Shown here piece after piece: positions 12,736 to 33,847 of a stretch of DNA of 64,000 nt. The first letter of the stretch is position 1; each line of letters opens with the position of its first letter. Location: positions 620,001 through 684,000 of the forward strand of contig NZ_QXED01000003.1 in the NCBI RefSeq assembly GCF_003583365.1, written 5' to 3'. The DNA comes from Fibrisoma montanum (lineage in GTDB: Bacteria > Bacteroidota > Bacteroidia > Cytophagales > Spirosomataceae). The notes beneath the pieces are model-generated. The model was not told the origin of the DNA. It made no database searches and saw only the letters and a list, made by a program, of their open reading frames with translations. Position numbers and translations under genes: made by a program.

Positions 12736-13872
<1,137 letters not shown>

Positions 13873-13910
13873 CTATTGTCAGCCGCGGGCGGACGTTTTC
13901 CATCATCTCT

Positions 13911-13918
13911 TATCTTTG
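13911..13918 (+). promoter_or_regulatory. Bacteroidota -7 element TAtcTTTG
   Basis: TATCTTTG matches the Bacteroidota -7 consensus TAnnTTTG exactly. No good -33 TTTG is found at the right spacing. Its end is 6 bases before the ATG at 13925, so a start of transcription at the usual distance would fall on or next to the start codon and yield a leaderless message. Confidence 0.35.
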
Positions 13919-13924
13919 CGGCTT

Positions 13925-14458
13925 ATGAACAACGCATGCATCCGGCCCGCAATGGAGCCGGACATCCCAACGATGAACCAACTTGTCAACAGTGCCTACC
14001 GGGGCGACAGCTCCCGGCGCGGCTGGACCACCGAAGCCGACCTCCTCGACGGCGTCCGGACCGACGAAGCGTCGCTGCGGGCCATGTTGCAGAACCCGGC
14101 GGCTACCCTACTGACCTACGAAGCCGATGGCCGCGTCCTTGGCTGCGTGTACCTCGAAACAAAACCGGATCATACCGGTGCGCCTACGCTTTATCTGGGT
14201 ATGCTGACCGTATCGCCCGATGCGCAGACAGGCGGCATTGGCAAGCAGCTCATGGCCGCAGCCGAACAGGTTGCCCGCAACCAGGGCTGCCGCAGCATCA
14301 CGATGACGGTGATTCCACAACGGCACGAACTGATTGCCTGGTACGAACGGCGCGGCTACCGGACAACGGGCGAAACCCGGCCGTTTCCGATGGACGACCC
14401 GCGCTTTGGTCTGCCTAAGGTTCCTCTGTCGTTCATCGTCATGGAGAAGAAGCTGTAG
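13925..14458 (+). CDS. GNAT family N-acetyltransferase
   Basis: 177-residue acetyl-CoA-dependent acetyltransferase. The reading frame is open for 25 codons further upstream, but MNNACIRPAMEPDIPTMNQL is the natural N-terminus of the fold. Motif A is YLGMLTVSPDAQTGGIGKQL with the acetyl-CoA-binding QTGGIG, and the later WYERRGYRTTGE is the common motif B region. The acceptor (amine, peptide or small molecule) cannot be told. The gene is divergent from the old yellow enzyme with 115 bases between the two starts, and shares the plus strand with the RidA gene. Confidence 0.85.
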   Translation: MNNACIRPAMEPDIPTMNQLVNSAYRGDSSRRGWTTEADLLDGVRTDEASLRAMLQNPAATLLTYEADGRVLGCVYLETKPDHTGAPTLYLGMLTVSPDAQTGGIGKQLMAAAEQVARNQGCRSITMTVIPQRHELIAWYERRGYRTTGETRPFPMDDPRFGLPKVPLSFIVMEKKL

Positions 14459-14605
14459 AATGAATCCGCAGACGGGCAACGGGTACGTTCGGCGTACGTT
14501 GACTGCCTCCCGCTGATTTGGTACTTTTTAGTAGTTTGCAGCCTTAACCTACCCATTACCAGGATCTGCGTATCGACTGGTAGACTAAACGCAATCAATC
14601 ACCAC

Positions 14606-15121
14606 ATGAAAACAATCACGTGTCTTTGCCTGCTCAGCTTTTCCATCAGTACTACGTATGCCCAGTCGGTGGAGGAAACGCTGACCAAGATGGGCATTAC
14701 GTTGTTTACCCCCGCCAAACCGATGGCCAACTACGTCAAGGCGGTCCGGACGGGCAATCTGCTGTTTCTGGCGGGCCACGTATGCACGCGCGCCGATGGT
14801 TCGGGAATTATGGGCAAGCTCGGCAAAGACCTGACCATTGAGCAGGGGTACGAAGCCGCCCGGGTCGCCACCATCTCGCTCCTCTCTACGCTGAAAGCTG
14901 AACTGGGTTCGCTCGACCGGGTGAAGCGCATCGTTAAGGTGACCGGTTTTGTCAACTCCGCCCCCGACTTCGGCGATCAGCCCAAGGTTGTCAACGGCTG
15001 CTCCGACCTGCTCGTGGCTACGTTTGGCGAACGGGGCAAACACGCCCGGTCGGCGGTGGGCATGGGAGCCCTGCCGTCGAATTACGCGGTAGAAATTGAA
15101 CTGGTAGTAGAAGTAGAGTAG
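14606..15121 (+). CDS. Exported RidA/YjgF/UK114 family protein
   Basis: 171 residues with a clear signal peptide (cleavage after TTYA, near residue 19), unusual for a family that is mostly cytosolic. The domain shows NLLFLAGHVCT, EQGYEAARVATISLL, LGSLDRVKRIVKVTGFVNS and ARSAVGMGALPSNYAVEIE. The Arg in KHARSAVG corresponds to the active-site Arg that binds the imine or enamine carboxylate in RidA. Known members deaminate reactive 2-aminoacrylate; this longer exported subclass is of unknown role. Convergent with the MpaB-like oxygenase gene. Confidence 0.88.
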   Translation: MKTITCLCLLSFSISTTYAQSVEETLTKMGITLFTPAKPMANYVKAVRTGNLLFLAGHVCTRADGSGIMGKLGKDLTIEQGYEAARVATISLLSTLKAELGSLDRVKRIVKVTGFVNSAPDFGDQPKVVNGCSDLLVATFGERGKHARSAVGMGALPSNYAVEIELVVEVE

Positions 15122-15174
15122 GCGTTTCAAGAGCAGCGCCAGTTAACAACGTTCAGACGAAGCCGCCCCACGAA

Positions 15175-16398
15175 TCAAGTTGGGTCGACCCCCCAGTCTT
15201 TTTTTAATGACTCGGGCAGGTAAAAATTAACATCGACGTTTCGTCCCATGAAACCAATCATCATTTTCAGCGCCACTCTGGCTAACATAGCCGCAACATC
15301 TTCAACAATAGGCGAACTTTTGACCAGGCTATCGACCTTATCAAACGTATTCATCAATTCCTGCAAATCCTGTAGTTTCTCAGGGTCGGCTTCAACTCCG
15401 ATAGTTGCTGCGATGTCGGGGCCAACCATAAAATGTATCCATTCAGGAACTTTACCGACCCAGCCTTCCAGTGATATTTCCTGTTTGAACTTAATTAAGG
15501 CACCCGTTAACTCACGCCCGTGGTCGCTTGGTTCAATCTGATGATCCAGAATGGCTTTTCCCAGCCTTCGGCCATCGGTACAGTTAGCTGGTAATAGATC
15601 GTCGTCTACACCCATCAGATAGCCCACAACCCGCCAGGCATGCAGAAAAGCCTCTTCCTCTTCAGGAGCCAGATTTATTCGCATTTTTTTCAGGCCATCA
15701 AGCACCAAAACGGAAAAAGCCATCAACGTTCCGGCCATATCTTCCTGGTTGATTGGCTCATCGTAAAGCGACGTCTGCCAGCCGTTCGTTCGCAGATAAT
15801 ATCGAATAGTAGCATGGATCAATCGTACTTTCTGAACTGTACGTATGGCCAGCCCTTCGGGTTCGAAACTATCTGGCGACATAACATTGACCACAAACTG
15901 GGCGGTTTCAACGATTCGACGCGTGAAAGCCTCCCGGGCCCCGTGGTGTTCGTTCAATCGGCCTGTCTGATACAGCACCATGGCCCCTTTTGCGCAGGCA
16001 TAACTCTCCGGTAACGATTTGCACGAAAGCACCAGCCCCATCAGGTGTCCATGCAGTTTGTAGACCTGCTGGGATAAGGCAATCAAATCGGGATCAAACC
16101 ACTCGGGCAGCTGGGTGGTCTGCCGGAAATAGTCTGAGATCTCGGCGGGCATATTACCGGGTACCGGATCGTCATTCCGCACCAGGTCCCGAAACAATTG
16201 GTTGACGTAGCCGCCCTGGCCGCGACCGAGCACCGTCGAAATCACGTCATCGGCTAAGGGGTCTGTACATTGCCGTTTCGCGTCAAGAAACGCCAACGAC
16301 CAGTCATGCAGTGGTCGTTGCTGTATTGCTTCGATTCTACGACGAACTGAATCGGGCAGTACGATTGATCGGGTGTCGTCGGATGGGGATGCGCTCAT
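15175..16398 (-). CDS. MpaB/latex-clearing-type (DUF2236) haem oxygenase
   Basis: 407-residue protein of the ER-bound oxygenase MpaB/rubber oxygenase Lcp catalytic family (DUF2236), which holds a b-type haem and cleaves isoprenoid C=C bonds. The core runs LVLSCKSLPESYACAKGAM, TRRIVETAQFVVNVM and VRLIHATIRYYL. Arg161, Thr165 and His195 have the same spacing as Arg164, Thr168 and the haem-ligand His198 that I recall for Lcp of Streptomyces K30; the Lys that caps the haem there is Glu164 here. No signal peptide, so it should be cytosolic, unlike Lcp. The start is 6 bases after the kinase stop, implying co-transcription and perhaps a role in making or removing a signal. Confidence 0.85.
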   Translation of the reverse strand: MSASPSDDTRSIVLPDSVRRRIEAIQQRPLHDWSLAFLDAKRQCTDPLADDVISTVLGRGQGGYVNQLFRDLVRNDDPVPGNMPAEISDYFRQTTQLPEWFDPDLIALSQQVYKLHGHLMGLVLSCKSLPESYACAKGAMVLYQTGRLNEHHGAREAFTRRIVETAQFVVNVMSPDSFEPEGLAIRTVQKVRLIHATIRYYLRTNGWQTSLYDEPINQEDMAGTLMAFSVLVLDGLKKMRINLAPEEEEAFLHAWRVVGYLMGVDDDLLPANCTDGRRLGKAILDHQIEPSDHGRELTGALIKFKQEISLEGWVGKVPEWIHFMVGPDIAATIGVEADPEKLQDLQELMNTFDKVDSLVKSSPIVEDVAAMLARVALKMMIGFMGRNVDVNFYLPESLKKDWGVDPT

Positions 16399-16404
16399 AG
16401 TGTG

Positions 16405-18567
16405 TCAGGAGGTTATGGGTAGTTGCAGAGTAAATTCTGTGTATTTGCCTACATCAGATGCCACCGTCATCTGGCCGCCATGCCCTTTCGTTACAATGTC
16501 ATAGCTGATGGATAAGCCAAGGCCGGTACCCTCTCCCGTAGGTTTTGTCGTAAAAAATGGCTGATATATTTTCTTTAACTGGTCGGCTGGTATGCCCACC
16601 CCGTTGTCTCTGACCGTAAGCAACACGTGTCCGTTTTGCGTCATGGTTGTAATCCGGATCTGTGGATGATAGGCTGAGCCAAGGCGCCTGACCTGCTGAT
16701 CAACGGCGTAAAACGCATTATTGAAGAGGTTTATCAACACCCGGCCAATGTCCTGAGGTACCAGTTCGGGGGTACCAATGGCGGGGTCCAGAACCTTAAT
16801 TAACTCTACCGTCAGCGTTGGATTTCTGGCTCGCATCGTATGGTAAGCGAGCGTCAGGCATTCATCGGCCAGGGTGTTCAGATTGGTCGGCTGACGTTCA
16901 TGGACAGCGCTGGCGCTTCGGTTATGTTCGAGCATACTGCGAACGATCCCCGCAGCCCGCTGACCGTTCCGACTGATGTGCTGCATGTTTTCACGCAGGT
17001 CGTCAAGCAGGCTGTCGGCCAGACCGAGGTCCGGAGCCGGTTGATGCAATGCCTGCCTGAGTTCATCGGTCAACTCTATATTTACTTCACTGAAATTGTT
17101 CACGAAATTCAGGGGGTTCTGAATTTCGTGGGCAACCCCTGCCGTAAGCTCACCCAAACTGGCCAGTTTCTCCTGCTGGACAAGCTGATCCTGCGTCGTC
17201 TTCAACTGGTTGAGCGACTGCTGTAATTCGGCGGTCCGGGTTTTAACCTCGCGCTCAAGCGTTTCGTTCTGCGAAGCCAGCCACCCTTGTTTCTCCTGCT
17301 CCTGCGCAATAGCCTGTGTCGACAGGGTTTCTACTTCGGTAAGCTTGACAGCGAGCAGCTGACTAATCATGGCAAATTCACGGGCCAGAAAGAGCGACAA
17401 GGCCAGTGGTACGCTAAGTGCACTCAGGCTAAAAAAAAGGCTTCCAATGGTTGAGGGGTTGACGCCTGTCGGTAGGGGCAGGTAATAGACGTTGATAAAC
17501 AGCACCAAAAACAAGGCTTTTAGGGCATGACCTGCCACAACGATCGGCGCACCCGGTCGTTGCCGGCGCAGGGCCACAATGGTTACCCGCAGAAGTTCAA
17601 GTGAAAAAAGCACCCAGATAAACGGTCCGCCCAGCCATTTCAGCGGATTATCCGGAGCATTTGCCATGAATATGCTCAGCAATCCGGCCGCCGTAATGGC
17701 GTAGAAGAACCTCCCCTGCCGAAACGAAAACAGTAGGTAATGAGCAACAACACTGAACCAGAAACCGACCACACTCAATATAAATCCGACGATAAATAAC
17801 CACTCCTGAACGGCTACCCAACGAAACAGAAACGGCAGCGCACCGATAGCGTAGCCAATGGAAAATAGGATCGTATAACTCGCGAAATACAGATTTGTGA
17901 GCTGCTTTCGATTGTAATAAAAAAATGTGAAGTGAATGACGCCCAGGATCAGGAGCAGGGCGGACGGAATGAGGTTAATACAAACCAGAATGGTCCGGTT
18001 GCGGTAAAAATGAACCACCTGCACCGGCTGGGAAAGGCGAGCCGAAAATACGCTGTATGACAACGGAGCGGGAAAATGGGGCGATAGCAACGGACAGTAA
18101 GCCACCCGGACAGCCAGCACTGACTCGGTATTTGCCGTCAAAGGAAATCCAATCGGTTCACCCGAAGGCTGGTAGGCCCGGCTCGTTTGGGGCGTAGGGC
18201 CGATGACGCCGTACCGCTGAAGCAGCCGGCCATTCAGATAAATTTCAGAAGCAACGACCTGATTGACCTGTAACAGTGTGGTTGTGTTGTACTGCGGGGA
18301 CGGCTTCAGGCGAAGGCGGAGCCAGCCGATACCCGCCTGCTGCAACCGGGTGAACTGCTGAATGGGTTGGGTAGGATCAACCGTCGGCCAGTTCCGGTCG
18401 TCAAAGTTGGGACGGGCGTAATCCGGATTGTCGCCGGGCTGAAATCGCCACCCGGTTTGCAGCAACACCCCTTCCCTACCTAAATCGTATAGCCGAAACG
18501 TTTCAGATTCCTGCGCCGAGGCATTTAAAGCCACCAACAGGCAAATGAAAAAGAAGAGGTAGTTCAT
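16405..18567 (-). CDS. Membrane sensor histidine kinase, seven-helix type
   Basis: 720 residues. Signal peptide (1-19), a periplasmic jelly-roll-like domain about 20-190 with GWFRFQPGD-type and YLNGRLL strands (beta-galactosidase sugar-binding look), seven hydrophobic helices about 195-400, a coiled coil 400-465, then HisKA with His480 in LGELTAGVAHEIQNPLNF and HATPase with NLFNNAFYAV, DNGVGIP and GEGTGLGLSISYDI. All catalytic boxes are intact. No receiver domain and no response regulator nearby, so it is an orphan kinase. It is a paralogue of the kinase at 20352-22535 and is followed after 6 bases by the MpaB-like oxygenase. In the transcription direction it lies 160 bases after the ferredoxin gene. 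Confidence 0.93.
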   Translation of the reverse strand: MNYLFFFICLLVALNASAQESETFRLYDLGREGVLLQTGWRFQPGDNPDYARPNFDDRNWPTVDPTQPIQQFTRLQQAGIGWLRLRLKPSPQYNTTTLLQVNQVVASEIYLNGRLLQRYGVIGPTPQTSRAYQPSGEPIGFPLTANTESVLAVRVAYCPLLSPHFPAPLSYSVFSARLSQPVQVVHFYRNRTILVCINLIPSALLLILGVIHFTFFYYNRKQLTNLYFASYTILFSIGYAIGALPFLFRWVAVQEWLFIVGFILSVVGFWFSVVAHYLLFSFRQGRFFYAITAAGLLSIFMANAPDNPLKWLGGPFIWVLFSLELLRVTIVALRRQRPGAPIVVAGHALKALFLVLFINVYYLPLPTGVNPSTIGSLFFSLSALSVPLALSLFLAREFAMISQLLAVKLTEVETLSTQAIAQEQEKQGWLASQNETLEREVKTRTAELQQSLNQLKTTQDQLVQQEKLASLGELTAGVAHEIQNPLNFVNNFSEVNIELTDELRQALHQPAPDLGLADSLLDDLRENMQHISRNGQRAAGIVRSMLEHNRSASAVHERQPTNLNTLADECLTLAYHTMRARNPTLTVELIKVLDPAIGTPELVPQDIGRVLINLFNNAFYAVDQQVRRLGSAYHPQIRITTMTQNGHVLLTVRDNGVGIPADQLKKIYQPFFTTKPTGEGTGLGLSISYDIVTKGHGGQMTVASDVGKYTEFTLQLPITS

Positions 18568-18727
18568 AAAAGCCTGATGTTACATTGCCTTGTCGACAGA
18601 CGCATACACAACTGTCAGGTGCTTTCTGGGGCACACAACCAGCCTGAAGCGATTCGCGTCAATGTACTCATTCAGGGCATAATAACTGCAAAATCAGGAC
18701 CTTACATTTTTTTTACGGTAAGCATCG

Positions 18728-19048
18728 CTACTGCTCCGCGCCCCGAATCCGGAACACGCCCCCGGCCAGCGATTCATCCACGCGAAGCTGGCAGGACAAC
18801 CGGCTGTCGAAGTCGGCGTCGGGCAGGGTGTCGAGCATATCGAGTTCGGCATCCTGAGCCGATGGCAGCCTGTCAAGCCCGTCCAGGACCTGAACATGGC
18901 AGGTGGCACAGAGGGCCATGCCCCCACAGGTCGCTAAAATGTTGTATTCAGACGCTTTGAGCACTTCCATCAGGCTCAGGGTAATGCCTTCCGGTATTTC
19001 CAGCGTTTGCCGCGTACCGTCGCGGTCTTCTATGGTAAATTGAATCAT
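18728..19048 (-). CDS. 2Fe-2S ferredoxin, adrenodoxin/Isc type
   Basis: 106-residue soluble electron carrier. Cluster ligands are Cys41, Cys47, Cys50 and Cys86, in ATCGGMALCATCHV and LSCQLRV: the CX5CX2C...C spacing of adrenodoxin-like vertebrate-type ferredoxins rather than plant-type CX4CX2C. The acidic stretch SAQDAELDMLDTLPDADFD between them is the partner-binding face of this class. It lies just downstream of the ferredoxin-NADP reductase gene, the obvious electron donor. The final acceptor is not visible; the only oxygenase near is the MpaB-like protein, whose known relatives need no reductase. Confidence 0.92.
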   Translation of the reverse strand: MIQFTIEDRDGTRQTLEIPEGITLSLMEVLKASEYNILATCGGMALCATCHVQVLDGLDRLPSAQDAELDMLDTLPDADFDSRLSCQLRVDESLAGGVFRIRGAEQ

Positions 19049-19064
19049 AATAAAGGGAAGGAAG

Positions 19065-19132
19065 GGGAAGAGAGGGACGAAAGGGAGAAAATAGATCAGC
19101 GCATCACTATTTCCTTTCGTCCCTCTCTTCCC
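19065..19132. repeat. Purine/pyrimidine hairpin between FNR and ferredoxin genes
   Basis: An inverted repeat with a 20-bp perfect core (19065-19084 with 19113-19132), one arm almost all purine and the other all pyrimidine apart from one G. Further pairing inside (GAAAATAG with CTATTTC) extends the stem towards the loop. The left arm is preceded by a slipped near-copy of GGGAAG units (19055-19065). It sits in the 96-base gap between two co-oriented genes and could be an attenuator, processing site or mobile palindrome. Confidence 0.65.
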
Positions 19133-19144
19133 TTTACTCCTTTT

Positions 19145-20149
19145 TTAAAAAGTTGGTACGCCGTTGACGGTCGTGTACTTGAAACTGAGTTTCTGGTTCG
19201 GGTAGACGTACCTGAATGCGCTCTGGCACATCAGCGCGGCCTCGTGGAAGCCGCACAGGATCAGCTTGAGCTTACCCGGATACGTATTGATGTCGCCGAT
19301 GGCGTAGATCCGCTCGACGTTGGTAGAATAATCGGTCGTGTTGACAGCAATCGCTGATTTGTCGATGTTCAGGCCCCAGTCGGCGATGGGTCCGAGCTTC
19401 GGCGTCAGGCCGAACAGAGGAATCAGGTTATCGGCCTCCAGGGTCGTTACCGATTTATCTTTTGCGGTAATGTTTACCTCCTGCAAATGGCCATTTCCAT
19501 TGATGCTGGTGATGTTCGATTGCAGCACCAGGTTGATTCGGCCTTCTTTGGCCAGTTCGAACACTTTCTCGGCCGAATCCGGTGCCCCCCGGAACGTATC
19601 GCCCCGGTGCACGAGCGTGACCTGCTTCGCTACGTTGGCCAGGAAAATGGTCCAGTCGAGGGCGGAATCACCACCGCCGGCCAGCACTACGCGCCGGTCG
19701 CGCAGTTGCTCAGGGTTCTTCACCATGTAGGCTACACCCTTGCCTTCAAAGCGCTCCAGGTTCTCAATCTCCGGTTTGCGCGGTTCGAAACAGCCAAGAC
19801 CACCGGCAATGACAACGACCTGGCAATGCACAGCCGTACCGTCGGTGGTCGTGATGAGGTACGAGTCATCCTCCTGCTTCACCAGATTCTCAACGCGCTC
19901 GCCAAGCGTGAACGTCGGGTGAAACGGCTCAATCTGCTCCATCAGGTTGTCGACCAGGTCCTGGGCGTTGATGGCTGGGTACCCCGGTATATCGTAAATT
20001 GGTTTTTGAGGGTAAATCTCGGAGAGCTGGCCCCCCACCTGCGGCAGGGCGTCGATCAGGTGGCAGCGCATCTTCAGCAAACCAGCTTCAAAGACGGCGA
20101 ACAGACCCACCGGGCCTGCGCCGATAATGCATATATCAGTAGTGATCAT
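19145..20149 (-). CDS. Ferredoxin--NADP reductase, thioredoxin-reductase-like
   Basis: 334-residue FAD flavoprotein of the TrxR-like FNR class (YumC type). FAD-binding IIGAGPVGLFAVFEAG is at the N-terminus, the flavin loop LPQVGGQLSEIYPQKPIYDI follows, and NADP binding is in VVLAGGGDSALDWT with HRGDTFRG after it. There is no redox-active CxxC of thioredoxin reductase, which separates FNR from TrxR. The C-terminal YAIGDINTYPGKLKLI binds the flavin. It passes electrons between NADPH and ferredoxin; the 2Fe-2S ferredoxin gene follows 96 bases downstream across a hairpin. Both are probably one transcript. Confidence 0.93.
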   Translation of the reverse strand: MITTDICIIGAGPVGLFAVFEAGLLKMRCHLIDALPQVGGQLSEIYPQKPIYDIPGYPAINAQDLVDNLMEQIEPFHPTFTLGERVENLVKQEDDSYLITTTDGTAVHCQVVVIAGGLGCFEPRKPEIENLERFEGKGVAYMVKNPEQLRDRRVVLAGGGDSALDWTIFLANVAKQVTLVHRGDTFRGAPDSAEKVFELAKEGRINLVLQSNITSINGNGHLQEVNITAKDKSVTTLEADNLIPLFGLTPKLGPIADWGLNIDKSAIAVNTTDYSTNVERIYAIGDINTYPGKLKLILCGFHEAALMCQSAFRYVYPNQKLSFKYTTVNGVPTF

Positions 20150-20351
20150 GGTTGTATTTGTCGTTCACAGGCCACCCCGACAACGGACCGGCCCTATCAA
20201 CAGAACGTGCTGTGTTGGTGAATAATTCGCCGTAAAAGTAGCCCGACGAATGTTGGTCCGGGCATCACAAATTGGAATGCAGGATAACCGGACGGAATGT
20301 ATGGCACCACATACCTACCTGACCACTACTCGAACGACTACGGCTCAGACA

Positions 20352-22535
20352 TCACGCGGGAATGGGCAGCGTTATCGTGAACTCCGTAAACTGCCCCGGT
20401 TCCGACTGCACGGTTAGGGTGCCACCATGGCCGTTGGTAATGATATCGTAACTGATCGACAGGCCAAGACCAGTACCCTGTCCGGTGGGTTTGGTGGTAA
20501 AGAACGGCTGAAAGATCTTCCCGATCACGGCAGCAGGAATACCCGATCCATTGTCCCGGATTTGAATGGACAGCCTGTCGCCCAGCCGCTGCGTACGTAC
20601 CGAAACGGTGGGCTGATAAGCGGCTGTTTCCTGTTTCTGCCGCTCACCGACGGCATAAAAAGCGTTGTTGAACAGATTCAGCAGCACGCGGCCAATGTCC
20701 TGCGGCACAACGCTGTAGCTCGGCAGGTCGCCGGCCAGATCAGTCAGGAGGGTGTAATTAACCGTTTTATCCGTTGCCGGATCGCCGGCCCGCCGTAATC
20801 CGTGGTAGCTGAGCCGCAGGTATTCATCGACCAGTGCGTTCAGATCGGTGGGCTGTTTCTGGCCGGTCCCGACGCGGCTGTGTTCCAGCATGCCCCGCAC
20901 AATATTGGCGGCCCGGTGCCCATGTTCACCAATCTTGGCAAGGTTCTGTTGCAGATCGGTCAGCAGGTCCCGTTCCAGATCGTGGTCCCGTTCGGCTTCC
21001 TTTTCGTGCTCTTCGTCCAGTTCCTGAACCAGTTCCAGCGACACTTCGGCGAAGTTGTTGACGAAGTTCAGCGGGTTCTGGATTTCGTGAGCGATTCCGG
21101 CCGTGAGTTCACCCAGGCTGGCCAGTTTTTCGCGTTGAATCAGCTGAGCCTGCGTAGCCCGCAGGTCAGCCAGGGATTGCTGCAACGCAGCCGTACGTTC
21201 GGCAACCTGCTGTTCTAGCGTTTCGTTCTGAACGGCCAGCAGGTGCTGCTTTTCCTGCTCCTGGGCGATCGTCCGGGCCGATAGGTCTTCTACTTCGCGC
21301 AGTTTCTGGCGCAGGGACTGGTACGTTCGGGCGTAGTCGCGCACGAGCGACAGGGATAAGCCAAGCGGAATAGCCAGCAGTGCAATCAGCACAGTTACGG
21401 TTGTAATGCTCATCAGAACAAGACTGTCTACATCGCCCAGTACGACCGAGAGAAAAGCCAGCACGATGAGAATAACGAAGCCAACCAGCACCACAAAAAA
21501 TATGATTCTCAGGGAATTCCAGGGCAATCGGGCATCGACATCCCCCCGACGCTTTCCCAGCCAGCTAACCCGTACGTACTCGATCAGCGACGCTGCAATG
21601 GCCACGCCAGCAACCGGCTCGGGTAAAGGGCCAATAACAATCTGATACATGACATCAACCAGTAACAGACAACTTATCAACCAGTAGACCTTGCCGCGTC
21701 GCCGGTTCAGGTAATGATACACGGCCGTCAACAGCAGCGCCAAACCAGCATAGCCAAGGAGATTGGCAACCAGGACGATCAGTGAATACAACTGGAGCGT
21801 GTTCGAAAGGGCCGACAAGCCGTTCAGCAGAAAAAAGGCACCAAAAGCCAGCATCATCAGCCCCAGCCACCAATTAATCCGTTGTGCCGCATTGGCGCGG
21901 TAAAACAGACTATGCAGCAGCCCCAGCAGCAGAAATATACCAGCCAGCGAATAATCCAGTCCGGCTATCCAGCGATGGCTCAGTATCAGGTTCTGACCAG
22001 CTTCGCTACGCTTCTCCAACTGCATCTTGAACGGATTTATGTCCACGTTGGCGTAGTAAACCGGCTGCCGGGGAAACCAGTAACGTACCGCCAGCAAGTG
22101 GCGACTGGTGTCTGTCAGGCGAAACGGAATGAGCTGGGCAATGCGTTGCGACCCCGCCGAATCAGTGCCCGGCGGCTGAAGAACGGCCAGCCGTCGACCA
22201 TCGAGATACACCTCCGACGATCCGTACTGCTCGATTACCAGCTGAAAATCCTGCCCCACGAGCCGCTTCTCGACCTTCACAGGCAACCGGAACCAACCGC
22301 GCCCGGATGCCCACAACGCCTTGTTTTCGATGAGCGGCTCGGCTGGCGACGTTAGCTCCCACGCCCGATCATCGTAGGTAGGGTCAGCCCAGGCCAGGCT
22401 ATCACCAGCCTGGAATCGCCAGTAGTTATCAGCGAGTTGCTGCATAACCCGGATGGTCTCTGCGCTATCTACCGACTGAGCACCGACGAACGAGGTGCTC
22501 AGCAGACCAAGGAAAATCAGAAGAAGGCGGTGCAT
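20352..22535 (-). CDS. Membrane sensor histidine kinase, paralogue
   Basis: 727 residues with the same plan as the kinase at 16405: signal peptide (1-19), periplasmic domain 20-185 with WYFRFQAGD-like and EVYLDGRRL strands, seven hydrophobic helices about 190-405, coiled coil, HisKA with His483 in LGELTAGIAHEIQNPLNF, then NLFNNAFYAV, DNGSGIP and GQGTGLGLSISYDI. An acidic insert (LDEEHEKEAERDHDLERDLL) follows the His box and is absent from the paralogue. No response regulator is close. The gene is divergent from the M16 peptidase gene, and separated by 200 bases from the FNR gene downstream. Confidence 0.93.
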   Translation of the reverse strand: MHRLLLIFLGLLSTSFVGAQSVDSAETIRVMQQLADNYWRFQAGDSLAWADPTYDDRAWELTSPAEPLIENKALWASGRGWFRLPVKVEKRLVGQDFQLVIEQYGSSEVYLDGRRLAVLQPPGTDSAGSQRIAQLIPFRLTDTSRHLLAVRYWFPRQPVYYANVDINPFKMQLEKRSEAGQNLILSHRWIAGLDYSLAGIFLLLGLLHSLFYRANAAQRINWWLGLMMLAFGAFFLLNGLSALSNTLQLYSLIVLVANLLGYAGLALLLTAVYHYLNRRRGKVYWLISCLLLVDVMYQIVIGPLPEPVAGVAIAASLIEYVRVSWLGKRRGDVDARLPWNSLRIIFFVVLVGFVILIVLAFLSVVLGDVDSLVLMSITTVTVLIALLAIPLGLSLSLVRDYARTYQSLRQKLREVEDLSARTIAQEQEKQHLLAVQNETLEQQVAERTAALQQSLADLRATQAQLIQREKLASLGELTAGIAHEIQNPLNFVNNFAEVSLELVQELDEEHEKEAERDHDLERDLLTDLQQNLAKIGEHGHRAANIVRGMLEHSRVGTGQKQPTDLNALVDEYLRLSYHGLRRAGDPATDKTVNYTLLTDLAGDLPSYSVVPQDIGRVLLNLFNNAFYAVGERQKQETAAYQPTVSVRTQRLGDRLSIQIRDNGSGIPAAVIGKIFQPFFTTKPTGQGTGLGLSISYDIITNGHGGTLTVQSEPGQFTEFTITLPIPA

Positions 22536-22716
22536 GCGTGGGTATCGACTTGACTGACGTAAATGAATGAATCAAAGGTACTCGATTATGAGCATCGTCC
22601 CGGCCAGTCATGAGCGCACCCTCGACCGATTATTTATTCTTTTTCAAGACCAATTATGCCGTTATTTCCCTGACATCTGCGTAAATTACCAACTTATTTA
22701 TGGTCAATACCCATTT

Positions 22717-25641
22717 ATGAGAAAAACTACCTTCAAGTTGGCAACGCTGCTGGCCCTGCTGGCCGTCGGTGTTGCTCAGGCCCAAACCAGGCTGGTGGAG
22801 AAGGTCACCCGCAAGGGCAACGAACTCCTGATTCCGTACGAAAAGTACGTACTGCCCAATGGCCTGACACTGGTCATTCACGAAGACCACTCCGACCCCA
22901 TCGTACACGTTGATGTGACCTACCACGTCGGCTCGGCCCGCGAAGAGATCGGCAAGTCGGGGTTCGCCCACTTCTTCGAGCACATGATGTTTCAGGGCTC
23001 CGACCACGTAGCCGACGATGAACACTTCAAGATCGTGACCGAGTCGGGCGGTACGCTCAACGGCACCACCAACCGCGACCGCACCAACTACTTCGAGACC
23101 CTGCCGAGCAACCAGCTCGAACGGGCCCTCTGGCTCGAAGCCGACCGCATGGGTTTCCTGCTGGATGCGGTGACGCAGAAAAAGTTTGAGATTCAGCGGG
23201 CTACGGTGAAAAACGAACGGGGCCAGAACTACGACAACCGCCCGTATGGCCTGGCCAGCGAGTACGTTGCCAAGAACCTGTACCCCTACGGGCACCCCTA
23301 CTCCTGGCTGACAATCGGCTACGTCGAAGACCTCAACCGCGTGAACGTCAACGACCTGAAGAACTTCTTCCTGCGCTGGTACGGTCCCAACAACGCCGTA
23401 CTGACCATCGGGGGCGATGTGAACCCCAAGCAGGTGGTATCGCTGGTAGAGAGGTATTTCGGCAACATTCCGGCCGGACCCGCCGTAACCAAAACGCAGG
23501 TACCGTCGCCCATGCTGGACAAAGACCGCTACGTATCGTACGAAGACAACATCCGGTTCCCGATGCTGCAGATCGTCTTCCCGACGGTGCCGAACTTCCA
23601 CCCCGACGAGGCTCCGCTCGATGCGCTGGCCGAAATTCTGGGCGGTGGCAAAAGCTCCCTGTTCTACAAGAACTTCGTGAAGAAACAGATTGCCGTGCAG
23701 GCCAATGCCTCGCACCCGGCCACTGAACTGTCGGGGCAGTTTGCCTTTACGGTGCTGCCGTTCCCCGACAAAAAACTGGACAGCATCGAAGCGGCCGTTC
23801 GGCAGACGCTGGTTGAGTTTGAAAAACGGGGCGTTACCGACGATGACATCAAGCAGTTTACGGCTACCCGCGAGGCTCAGCTCATCGACGGCCTGTCGAG
23901 CGTTTCGGGTAAGGTGTCACAACTGGCTTCGTTCCAGACGTTTCTGGGTAACCCGAACTACCTGCCGCAGGAGTTCAAGCGGTACAAGAGCGTAACCAAG
24001 GCCGATATTATGCGGGTGTATAATCAGTACATCAAAGGCAAAAACGCCGTGATCCTGACGGTGTATCCCAAAGGTAAAGCCGACATCGTGGCCAAGCCCG
24101 ACAACTACACCATCGCCACGACCGGTTATAAAGCCCCTGACTACGGCTACACCGGCCTGACGTACAAGAAACCAAAAGACAGCTTCGACCGGAGCGCGAA
24201 GCCCGGCCCGGGTCCGAACCCGACGCTGAAAGTTCCGCCCTACTGGACCGATAAGATGGCCAACGGCCTGAAAGTGATCGGTGCGCGCAACGACGAAGTG
24301 CCGACCGTTACGATGCTGTTCTCGATCAAAGGCGGGCATCTGCTGTCGGCTACCGATCCGTCAAAAGCCGGTATCGCCCAACTGACGGCCGCGCTGATGA
24401 ACGAGGCCACCGAGCGGTTCAGCAACGAAGAATTAAGCGCCAAACTGGAAAAACTCGGCAGCAACATCGACATCCGGGCCGGTACTGAGGAAATCAACGT
24501 ATCGGTTGAATCGATGGTCAAAAACCTGGATTCGACACTGGCCCTGGTCGAAGAAAAACTGCTGCGTCCGAAGTTCGCGGCCGAGGATTTTGACCGGCTC
24601 AAAAAGCAGCAGATCGAACTGGTCGCCAACCAGAGCACCCAGCCCGTTGTCATTGCCAACAAAGCCTACAGCAAACTGCTTTACGGCCCCGACAACATCC
24701 GCTCGATCCCGGTTAGCGGCACGGTGAAAACGGTCGAAGCCATTACGCTCGACGACGTTAAGGCCTTCTACCAGAAATACCTGTCGCCGTCGGTAACGAA
24801 CCTCGTCATTGTGGGCGACATCGACCAGTCGACGGCCCTGTCTAAGCTGGCGTTTCTGAACAAATGGGCACCTAAGTCCGTGACCCTGCCTAAAGCCGCG
24901 CCCGCCCGCAAAATCGACAAGACCCGCATTTACCTGGTCGACAAAGAAAAAGCGGCTCAGTCGGAAATCCGGATTGGCTACCTGACCGACATGCCCTACG
25001 ACGCTACCGGCGATTACTACCGGGCCGGCCTGGCTAACTACATGCTGGGTGGTGCCTTCAACAGCCGGATCAACATGAACCTGCGCGAAGACAAAGGCTG
25101 GACCTACGGCGCCCGCTCCGGCTTTGGCAGTACCAAAACCCCGGGGCCGTTCACGGCGCAGGCGGGTGTGAAAGCAGCCGCGACGGATAGCTCGGTAGTG
25201 GAGTTCGTTAAGGAAATTACCAACTACACCAAGTCGGGTATTTCGGAGCAGGAACTGGCATTCGTGAAAAGCTCGCTGGGTCAGGTAGACGCCCTGCGTT
25301 ACGAAACCCCGCTGCAAAAGGCATTTTTCCTCGGCCGTATCATCGAGTACGACCTGCCGCGCAACTTCGTGGAGCAGCAAAGCGAGATCCTGCGCAACAT
25401 CACCAAAGCGCAGATCGACGCCGTAGCGAAGAAAAACCTGCCGGTCGACAAGATGATCATTACCGTGGTAGGGAATAAGGAACTGATCAAACCCGGCCTG
25501 CAGCGGCTTGGCTACGAGTTGATTGAACTAGATAAGGAAGGCAACCCGGTTGTTACCGCAACCACGACCCCGTCAACCGATACGCCCCCCGCCAAAGCCG
25601 GTTCGTCATCGGACGGCGGAGCGAAGAAAAAAATCGACTAA
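22717..25641 (+). CDS. Exported M16 (pitrilysin-type) zinc peptidase
   Basis: 974 residues, two fused M16 units as in pitrilysin. The frame is open 50 codons further upstream, but MRKTTFKLATLLALLAVGVA is a signal peptide and sets the start. The first unit holds the inverted zinc motif HFFEH (His85, Glu88, His89) with the third ligand Glu in KNERGQNYDNRPYG. The second unit, from about residue 510, lacks HxxEH as expected for the inactive half, but keeps the NMNLREDKGWTYGARS substrate-binding Arg-Tyr region. Acts in the periplasm on peptides or unfolded proteins. Ends with a low-complexity Thr/Ser/Lys tail. A strong terminator follows. Confidence 0.93.
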   Translation: MRKTTFKLATLLALLAVGVAQAQTRLVEKVTRKGNELLIPYEKYVLPNGLTLVIHEDHSDPIVHVDVTYHVGSAREEIGKSGFAHFFEHMMFQGSDHVADDEHFKIVTESGGTLNGTTNRDRTNYFETLPSNQLERALWLEADRMGFLLDAVTQKKFEIQRATVKNERGQNYDNRPYGLASEYVAKNLYPYGHPYSWLTIGYVEDLNRVNVNDLKNFFLRWYGPNNAVLTIGGDVNPKQVVSLVERYFGNIPAGPAVTKTQVPSPMLDKDRYVSYEDNIRFPMLQIVFPTVPNFHPDEAPLDALAEILGGGKSSLFYKNFVKKQIAVQANASHPATELSGQFAFTVLPFPDKKLDSIEAAVRQTLVEFEKRGVTDDDIKQFTATREAQLIDGLSSVSGKVSQLASFQTFLGNPNYLPQEFKRYKSVTKADIMRVYNQYIKGKNAVILTVYPKGKADIVAKPDNYTIATTGYKAPDYGYTGLTYKKPKDSFDRSAKPGPGPNPTLKVPPYWTDKMANGLKVIGARNDEVPTVTMLFSIKGGHLLSATDPSKAGIAQLTAALMNEATERFSNEELSAKLEKLGSNIDIRAGTEEINVSVESMVKNLDSTLALVEEKLLRPKFAAEDFDRLKKQQIELVANQSTQPVVIANKAYSKLLYGPDNIRSIPVSGTVKTVEAITLDDVKAFYQKYLSPSVTNLVIVGDIDQSTALSKLAFLNKWAPKSVTLPKAAPARKIDKTRIYLVDKEKAAQSEIRIGYLTDMPYDATGDYYRAGLANYMLGGAFNSRINMNLREDKGWTYGARSGFGSTKTPGPFTAQAGVKAAATDSSVVEFVKEITNYTKSGISEQELAFVKSSLGQVDALRYETPLQKAFFLGRIIEYDLPRNFVEQQSEILRNITKAQIDAVAKKNLPVDKMIITVVGNKELIKPGLQRLGYELIELDKEGNPVVTATTTPSTDTPPAKAGSSSDGGAKKKID

Positions 25642-33073: not shown

Positions 33074-33847
33074 ATGTTTCATGAACCACCCAAAAATTTC
33101 CTTTATTCTGCATACAAGATTGAAGTTGAACATTCCGATGGAGCAAAGTCAAAAAGTGGAGTTGCAACTGGCTTTGTCCTTGAAATAGCAGAACGAGTAC
33201 CGTGGATCATAACGAACAGACATGTTATCGACATTGATTATAAACAGGTAACTCCCAAATTCAAAGATTTTAAGCTATCAAAACTATCAATTACCGGCCG
33301 CAGAGCTGACGATTCCGAGTACACTTTTCAACTTCATGAAGATGCTAAATTTTATTTTCATGAGGACTACCAAAACGACATTGCAATTGTCGAAGCTAAA
33401 ATCTATCATTCTGATGATAAACCTCTCCATTGGCACTTTGGATTGGAGCATTTGGCTAATAACAATATTTACAAGGAGTTAGATGCGTATGATGAAATCT
33501 GTTACACTGGCTTCCCGAACACTTACGACAAGTTTAGCAATAGGCCTATTATCAGAAGTGGCCGAATAGCCAGTGACCCCAGGTTCGACTATTCATGGAA
33601 TAGAGATTATCAAGGTCAATGTGTTGCTTACGAAGGTTTTTCTTCTGAGGGAGCGTCTGGAAGTCCAATTTTTGCCCCACCACGAGGACTGCAAGGTATT
33701 CCTAATTCCAGACATGGCTATTTAATCGGAGTAAATGCAGGGCACATTCCAGATCATTTTGGCCATAGTGGTATTTCTTACTTTTACAAAACCTTGGCTT
33801 TACTTGAAATAATTGAAAAAAATAAGCTGGCAGAGATCACAAGCTAA
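33074..33847 (+). CDS. Trypsin-like (V8-type) serine peptidase
   Basis: 257-residue protein with a chymotrypsin-fold triad: His50 in IITNRHVI, Asp102 in YQNDIAIV and Ser195 in GASGSPIF. No signal peptide, so it is likely to be cytosolic, unlike most degradative trypsin-like enzymes. No PDZ or other domain. The gene is strongly AT-rich against its surroundings. Intracellular trypsin-like peptidase domains occur as effectors in bacterial defence and conflict systems, and here it stands 84 bases before a RES-Xre toxin-antitoxin pair. A defence role is inference; a housekeeping regulatory protease is the alternative. Confidence 0.78.
   Translation: MFHEPPKNFLYSAYKIEVEHSDGAKSKSGVATGFVLEIAERVPWIITNRHVIDIDYKQVTPKFKDFKLSKLSITGRRADDSEYTFQLHEDAKFYFHEDYQNDIAIVEAKIYHSDDKPLHWHFGLEHLANNNIYKELDAYDEICYTGFPNTYDKFSNRPIIRSGRIASDPRFDYSWNRDYQGQCVAYEGFSSEGASGSPIFAPPRGLQGIPNSRHGYLIGVNAGHIPDHFGHSGISYFYKTLALLEIIEKNKLAEITS

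Follow-up and report, generated by a model that had tools for sequence, protein, structure and literature searches.

The kinase-oxygenase gene pair

The window analysed here is a 64,000-nucleotide stretch of the genome of Fibrisoma montanum (Bacteroidota, Spirosomataceae; contig NZ_QXED01000003.1, positions 620,001 to 684,000), and coordinates without a locus label are counted from its first nucleotide. On the minus strand it carries two adjacent genes whose association is the subject here, one for a sensor histidine kinase (HK1) and the other for a homologue of the MpaB/Lcp-type haem oxygenases (MPAB), with the kinase upstream and the oxygenase following its stop codon (Table 1). The open reading frames (ORFs) bear out the 6 bases that the original prediction had placed between the two genes, and so short a gap suggests that HK1 and MPAB are co-transcribed. 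A sigma-70 promoter scan returned fewer sites than in shuffled sequence. The Bacteroidota promoter consensus is nowhere matched in full within the window; its half-site matches once, 38 bases before a second kinase gene (HK2), and not in the spacer before HK1.

Table 1 Features of the HK1-MPAB locus in window coordinates
Feature	Position	Strand	Basis
HK1, seven-helix sensor histidine kinase, 720 residues	16405..18567	-	ORF; HATPase_c; motifs; AlphaFold2
HK1 periplasmic beta-rich domain, residues 33-179	18031..18471	-	AlphaFold2 strands
HK1 seven helices, residues 181-448	17224..18027	-	AlphaFold2 helices
HK1 histidine phosphotransfer and ATPase core, residues 459-720, His480	16405..17193	-	Pfam; model; Foldseek; motifs
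6-base gap, kinase stop to oxygenase start	16399..16404	.	ORF ends
MPAB, MpaB/Lcp-type haem oxygenase homologue, 407 residues	15175..16398	-	PF09995; AlphaFold2; match to LcpK30 5o1m
MPAB predicted haem site: Arg161, Glu164, Thr165 (distal) and His195 (proximal ligand)	15814..15918	-	Alignment; roles from LcpK30
Two-gene unit, present in the window, absent from Fibrisoma limi	15118..18729	.	Alignment; GC

Linkage of the oxygenase lineage to membrane receptors

Recurrence of the association was assessed in a family sample of 150 genomes. The lineage of the window MPAB comprises all 23 matches at E 4e-56 or better, and it was set against 23 loci examined out of more than 100 weaker MPAB matches. 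Every MPAB of the window lineage (23/23) is encoded no more than 2.6 kb from a same-strand gene for a kinase or cyclase receptor, in contrast to none of the 23 oxygenases examined from other lineages (Fisher p 2e-13, not corrected for shared ancestry, which inflates linkage counts). The recurrence in other genomes that the original prediction put forward as its check is thus found for this lineage, and the linkage of its members to receptors is near certain.

Kinase, seven-helix and terpene cyclase calls were made with profiles built from the analysis' own proteins, and 23 receptors and 10 cyclases were checked against Pfam. By that check, 17 of the 23 partner receptors carry a HATPase_c domain and 6 a guanylate/adenylate (class III) cyclase domain; 17 match 7TMR-DISM_7TM and 16 match 7TMR-DISMED2. 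The presence of 17 kinase and 6 cyclase outputs among the partners indicates that the output varies while MPAB is constant.

A wider locus set across phyla (the best 80 of 271 loci) and a tree of 100 MPAB domains extend this comparison to independently named genomes and agree with it, six duplicate-contig loci (L017, L018, L130, L131, L133, L143) having been removed before the tree was built. The window MPAB falls in a clade of 15 rows (support 99), 14 of which are linked to a receptor and 13 also to a Pyr4-like cyclase. In a wider clade of 40 rows, 32 are receptor-linked, as are 4 of the remaining 60 rows of the tree. Rows L027, L030 and L065 are given as unlinked in the 40-row clade, and the sequences of L030 and L065 end 36 and 132 bases past MPAB. 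Arrangements vary: the receptor may come before or after MPAB, the cyclase may be present or absent, the output may be a kinase or a cyclase, and MPAB may stand alone or be fused to caspase, GDSL or DUF5995 domains. Such variety argues that the linkage has been kept or remade through rearrangement. The DUF5995 and caspase/GDSL fusions themselves were rejected as the common denominator of these loci, as they characterise one 13-row lineage. Also left uncounted as links were the guanylate cyclase-AAA neighbours of Chloroflexota MPABs (L044 and others), which are encoded on the opposite strand.

The window genome holds three separate receptor-linked MPAB loci. At L014:6256-11286 in this genome, the gene for a 1676-residue caspase-GDSL-MPAB-DUF5995 protein has a 4-base overlap with the start of a 7TMR-DISM histidine kinase gene. 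The same fusion occurs in Fibrisoma limi (L017), while in sister genomes its parts are separate and the receptor may end in a class III cyclase. At L016:5229-9731, also in the window genome, genes for an MPAB, a Pyr4-like cyclase, a seven-helix HisKA_2 kinase and a LytTR response regulator overlap or nearly do so.

Among the other loci, an MPAB-TMTC-kinase cluster includes a response regulator-guanylate/adenylate cyclase fusion immediately after a CheY-like protein (L131:11902-12948), and a mycobacterial MPAB (L055) has a relative of DUF5995 encoded 36 bases downstream, like the Cytophagales fusion. The unlinked MPAB lineage of the family (L015, L187-L190, L195, L200) repeatedly adjoins a gene that we take, from the start of its protein, to be MnmE-like, often with what is presumably, on the same basis, a metal-dependent-hydrolase-like gene on the opposite side.

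Terpene cyclases beside the oxygenase

MPAB is immediately followed, in many relatives, by a gene for a membrane protein of about 220 residues. Nine of the ten putative cyclases scanned match PF25129 (Pyr4-TMTC) and the remaining one matches DUF6989. A Pyr4-like cyclase lies within 1.5 kb of MPAB in 13 of the 15 rows of the window clade, and the residues W56, E57 and D83 are retained in all 28 cyclases of MPAB loci. A PF25129 match above the cut-off is found in 18 of the 150 family genomes, and 9 of these 18 matches are about 1 kb or less from an MPAB. Association with a second kind of cyclase is seen in other phyla: in Myxococcota, MPAB and a squalene-hopene cyclase are joined in one polypeptide (L051 by Pfam; L058 and L067 likewise by the analysis-built profile), and a squalene-hopene cyclase lies near MPAB on a gammaproteobacterial contig (L041).

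Presence and absence of the pair as a unit

Fibrisoma limi BUZ 3, the closest named relative, has a colinear locus that lacks exactly HK1 and MPAB (3.6 kb). Window positions 13001-15117 and 18730-23000 align to F. limi at 83% and 81%, with 14 bases between the two alignments. The guanine-cytosine (GC) content of the intervening segment (15118..18729) is 0.519, against 0.581 and 0.563 in the flanks, and third-position GC is 0.539 for MPAB and 0.605 for HK1, where 32 window genes have a mean of 0.681 (sd 0.084). Because the two genes are missing together in F. limi and are low in third-position GC, HK1-MPAB has the look of a single mobile unit. In this comparison of two genomes, gain of the pair in the window genome is favoured over its loss from F. 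limi, since GC is low both across the segment and at its third codon positions.

Family, predicted fold and putative haem site of MPAB

MPAB falls in the family PF09995 (MPAB_Lcp_cat), with a score of 83.1 bits (cut-off 23), and its only strong relative of solved structure by sequence is the rubber oxygenase LcpK30 (PDB 5o1l/5o1m; two entries, E 1e-28). The AlphaFold2 model of MPAB (predicted local distance difference test, pLDDT, 88.7; predicted template modelling score 0.90) superposes on LcpK30 5o1m with Z 31.9 and a root-mean-square deviation of 3.5 over 342 aligned residues. The runner-up is the t-anethole oxygenase of Stenotrophomonas maltophilia (8s1j; Z 19.8, 262 residues, 14% identity), the name of which implies a small alkene substrate; structure matches by VIA-align below Z 3 were disregarded.

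The Arg, Thr and His of the Lcp haem site, the spacing of which the original prediction had recognised in MPAB, align exactly: Arg164, Thr168 and His198 of LcpK30 correspond to Arg161, Thr165 and His195, with spacings of 4 and 30 residues in both proteins. Roles of the haem-site residues are taken from the available text of PMC5522427. All 44 aligned homologues, which come from several phyla, have Arg161, Thr165 and His195, and 41 of the 44 have Glu164. Two structurally important arginines of LcpK30, Arg195 and Arg202, correspond to Arg192 and Arg199 of MPAB and are likewise found in all 44. On this conservation MPAB is probably a haem-binding protein. In the window clade, the N-terminus of 13 of 15 MPABs forms a membrane helix with basic residues after it, a combination that would keep the enzyme at the inner side of the membrane.

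The HK1 receptor kinase

HK1 scores 79.8 bits against HATPase_c (cut-off 26.4) and 23.8 bits against HisKA, slightly below the cut-off of 26.9. Its kinase motifs are intact, with a His-Glu-Ile H-box at residue 480 and the N, G1 and G2 motifs. With 7TMR-DISM_7TM (PF07695) it reaches 18.7 bits, below the cut-off of 29. The AlphaFold2 model, of moderate confidence (pLDDT 76), nevertheless has the architecture of 7TMR-DISM receptors, with a periplasmic beta domain, seven long helices (residues 181-218, 223-246, 251-279, 286-302, 309-334, 340-360 and 371-448) and a cytoplasmic kinase core, and its seventh helix extends into a long signalling helix. The top Foldseek matches of the kinase core are ZraS, LvrB and HK853. 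In the periplasmic domain, which may resemble the sugar-binding jelly roll of glycoside hydrolase family 2, residues W40, W60, W82, R84, Y110 and G113 are conserved among 16 relatives.

Proposed function and its alternatives

The explanation tentatively preferred here, and a plausible one, is that MPAB oxidises a membrane isoprenoid, that the substrate or product of MPAB modulates the adjacent receptor HK1, and that the pair is one functional, heritable unit. On the cytosolic side, MPAB would bind haem and use O2 to oxidise a lipid of isoprenoid type located in the inner membrane or at its surface. The Pyr4-like membrane terpene cyclase encoded alongside would, in most close relatives, produce or modify this isoprenoid. 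The oxidised product, or depletion of the substrate, would shift the adjacent seven-helix receptor to another state, and the receptor would relay the signal by phosphotransfer in the window and by a cyclic nucleotide in a sister lineage. An inner-face oxygenase of isoprenoid type would be the constant part of the system and the receptor the variable part. As a cyclase and a membrane anchor are absent at the window locus, the window copy would have as its substrate an isoprenoid that the host already contains or, possibly, the product of the L016 cluster. The isoprenoid substrate, the direction of signalling and the response of the receptor to MPAB chemistry are what we infer from these data, and terpenoid sensing is a good but open hypothesis. 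A broader form of this proposal, which is possible but more doubtful, would have cyclase and oxygenase make or clear an inner-membrane terpenoid ligand in Bacteroidota and scattered other phyla, read by seven-helix receptors with interchangeable outputs, with the window as a minimal two-gene mobile form.

A number of observations weigh against oxidation of an isoprenoid as the basis of a signal. No terpene cyclase is found near HK1-MPAB in the window, and the only PF25129 gene of the window genome is on another contig, in the L016 cluster beside another MPAB. The 13-row MPAB-DUF5995 lineage has receptors without a neighbouring cyclase, and outside the family only 2 of 13 PF25129 loci from other genomes have an MPAB in their 1.5-kb flank. 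The HK1 kinase subfamily occurs in 64 of the 150 family genomes, mostly without an MPAB; judged by gene positions, the window genome and Runella sp. MFBS21 (G123) are the only ones in which it adjoins this oxygenase. Of the kinase-oxygenase pairing originally predicted, therefore, the association of the oxygenase with some receptor stands, but that with a kinase of the HK1 type is limited to these two adjacencies. The N-terminus of the window MPAB is polar, and no hydrophobic segment, signal peptide or membrane anchor was seen by a hydropathy scan, made without a dedicated signal-peptide predictor. At the haem site, Glu148 of LcpK30, the catalytic or channel base, is replaced by Gly138 (Gly in 44/44 homologues) and the distal ligand Lys167 by Glu164 (Glu in 41/44), and given these replacements MPAB chemistry may differ from that of LcpK30. 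Lys167 is 59% conserved among Lcps, according to the available text of PMC5522427. A conserved acid appears to have shifted to a place beside the haem, which would suggest that the site is functional but its chemistry altered, and speaks against MPAB as a plain rubber oxygenase. Because Glu148 and Lys167, both important in rubber cleavage, are replaced, MPAB should not be named an Lcp.

MPAB might instead be no enzyme at all but a haem-based sensor subunit that, by means of a globin-like fold, binds O2, NO or CO, docks on HK1 or its signalling helix and sets kinase activity. The 3/3 globin fold of LcpK30 is similar to that of globin-coupled sensors (PMC5522427, available text), the window MPAB appears soluble and lacks a cyclase neighbour, and the Lcp catalytic base is missing from it, so that for the window copy a sensor is about as good a fit as an enzyme. 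It is the relatives alone that tip the balance: terpene cyclases are what MPAB repeatedly neighbours or is fused to, the distal Arg and Thr on which LcpK30 catalysis depends are invariant together with a broad set of other residues, and most of the relatives' receptors already have a periplasmic domain of their own (7TMR-DISMED2 in 16/23). A sensor subunit is accordingly held to be unlikely, and an enzyme somewhat likelier than not. A rather improbable account, if less so than a haem sensor, takes MPAB and the cyclase as ordinary enzymes and makes the kinases pathway-specific regulators that turn on a small terpenoid or isoprenoid-degradation pathway, the product of which is used elsewhere as a membrane lipid, pigment or antibiotic. 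Such regulation is consistent with the FAD (flavin adenine dinucleotide) oxidoreductase that adjoins the cyclase in Runella sp. MFBS21 and with the response regulators of the clusters, which include CheY-like and receiver-cyclase proteins, but it sits poorly with the presence of several receptors per enzyme, as at L132, where three kinases precede MPAB and two follow the cyclase. Moreover, no prenyltransferase was noticed beside the clusters among the scanned neighbour proteins, and the window unit consists of two genes, no further enzyme having arrived with the pair. Coincidental adjacency in a kinase-rich genome could appeal to the 122 HATPase_c matches of the window genome and to the kinases that lie about 3 kb from 3 of 20 unlinked MPAB loci, but it is very improbable and is refuted at the level of linkage by the contrast between the two oxygenase samples; the presence or absence of the pair as one and the three receptor-linked loci of this genome also speak against it.

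Relation to known systems

MPAB_Lcp proteins are common in bacteria and are known almost solely as rubber oxygenases. MPAB shares with LcpK30 a predicted fold, a sequence relationship and the five residues aligned above, and it differs in showing no secretion signal, in the replaced Glu148 and Lys167 and in having a kinase as its neighbour instead of rubber catabolism genes. MpaB of the fungal mycophenolic acid pathway cleaves the double bond of a prenyl side chain and gives the shared Pfam family its name, but it is set apart by description, being eukaryotic, bound to the endoplasmic reticulum and biosynthetic. The partner receptors, 17 of 23 of which match 7TMR-DISM_7TM, resemble the 7TMR-DISM receptors of Pseudomonas, such as SagS, in having seven helices together with a periplasmic domain and in their kinase output. 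HK1 itself scores below the 7TMR-DISM_7TM cut-off. We know of no oxygenase or cyclase partner of the Pseudomonas receptors. In the CqsA/CqsS system, the synthase of a lipophilic signal is encoded beside its membrane receptor kinase. The placing of an enzyme gene beside a membrane kinase is common to CqsA/CqsS and MPAB-HK1, although the enzymes are unrelated and a signal role for MPAB is a proposal. Compared with the MPAB-TMTC-receptor clusters of its relatives, the window retains the adjacent same-strand receptor and lacks the Pyr4-like TMTC.

The bacterial Pyr4-like cyclases XiaH, TylF and ZigF are of the same PF25129 kind as the cyclase of 13 of 15 related clusters, but lie in meroterpenoid biosynthetic clusters, unlike the receptor-linked cyclases (PMC13307353, available text). 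In that text, mining is described only beside other terpenoid genes, with 1107 bacterial candidates reduced to the 264 that have terpenoid genes nearby; the receptor-linked cyclases could have been set aside at this step. The words 'kinase', 'oxygenase' and 'Bacteroid-' are absent from the same available text. A literature search, from which subscription papers mostly fell outside, returned no account of receptor kinases paired with an MPAB/DUF2236 gene. In the available part of PMC8538451, a figure legend for a rubber degrader places kinase genes a few genes from an lcp gene without comment. Should a large class of these enzymes indeed sit in receptor clusters, a whole signalling chemistry would have been overlooked, and ligands for orphan seven-helix receptors would become testable. 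The association hints at an unstudied sensing of terpene-like molecules, of which the window would offer a two-gene minimal version with F. limi as a natural empty-site control species.

Genes flanking the pair

Genes for a ferredoxin and an FAD reductase (18728-20149) were considered as electron-donor members of the unit and rejected, as both are kept in F. limi without the pair; in the other genera searched, the FAD reductase also lies at a distance from the known MPAB loci. The two proteins may supply electrons to MPAB in trans. HK2 (20352-22535) is likewise at the same locus in F. limi without the pair, and its orthologue there (L210:8817-10999) is split into two overlapping frames, either as a decaying gene or through an assembly error.

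In Runella sp. MFBS21 (L037), two tandem kinases, which are the best matches of HK1 and HK2 (33% and 36%), are followed by MPAB. Full synteny with this genome was dropped, because kinase tandems of the HK1/HK2 type also occur in the family without MPAB; given those tandems and the presence of HK2 in F. limi, only the order of a kinase followed by MPAB is retained from the comparison. Elsewhere in the window, a gene at 33074-33847 has a third-position GC of 0.329 against the mean of 0.681 and is probably foreign.

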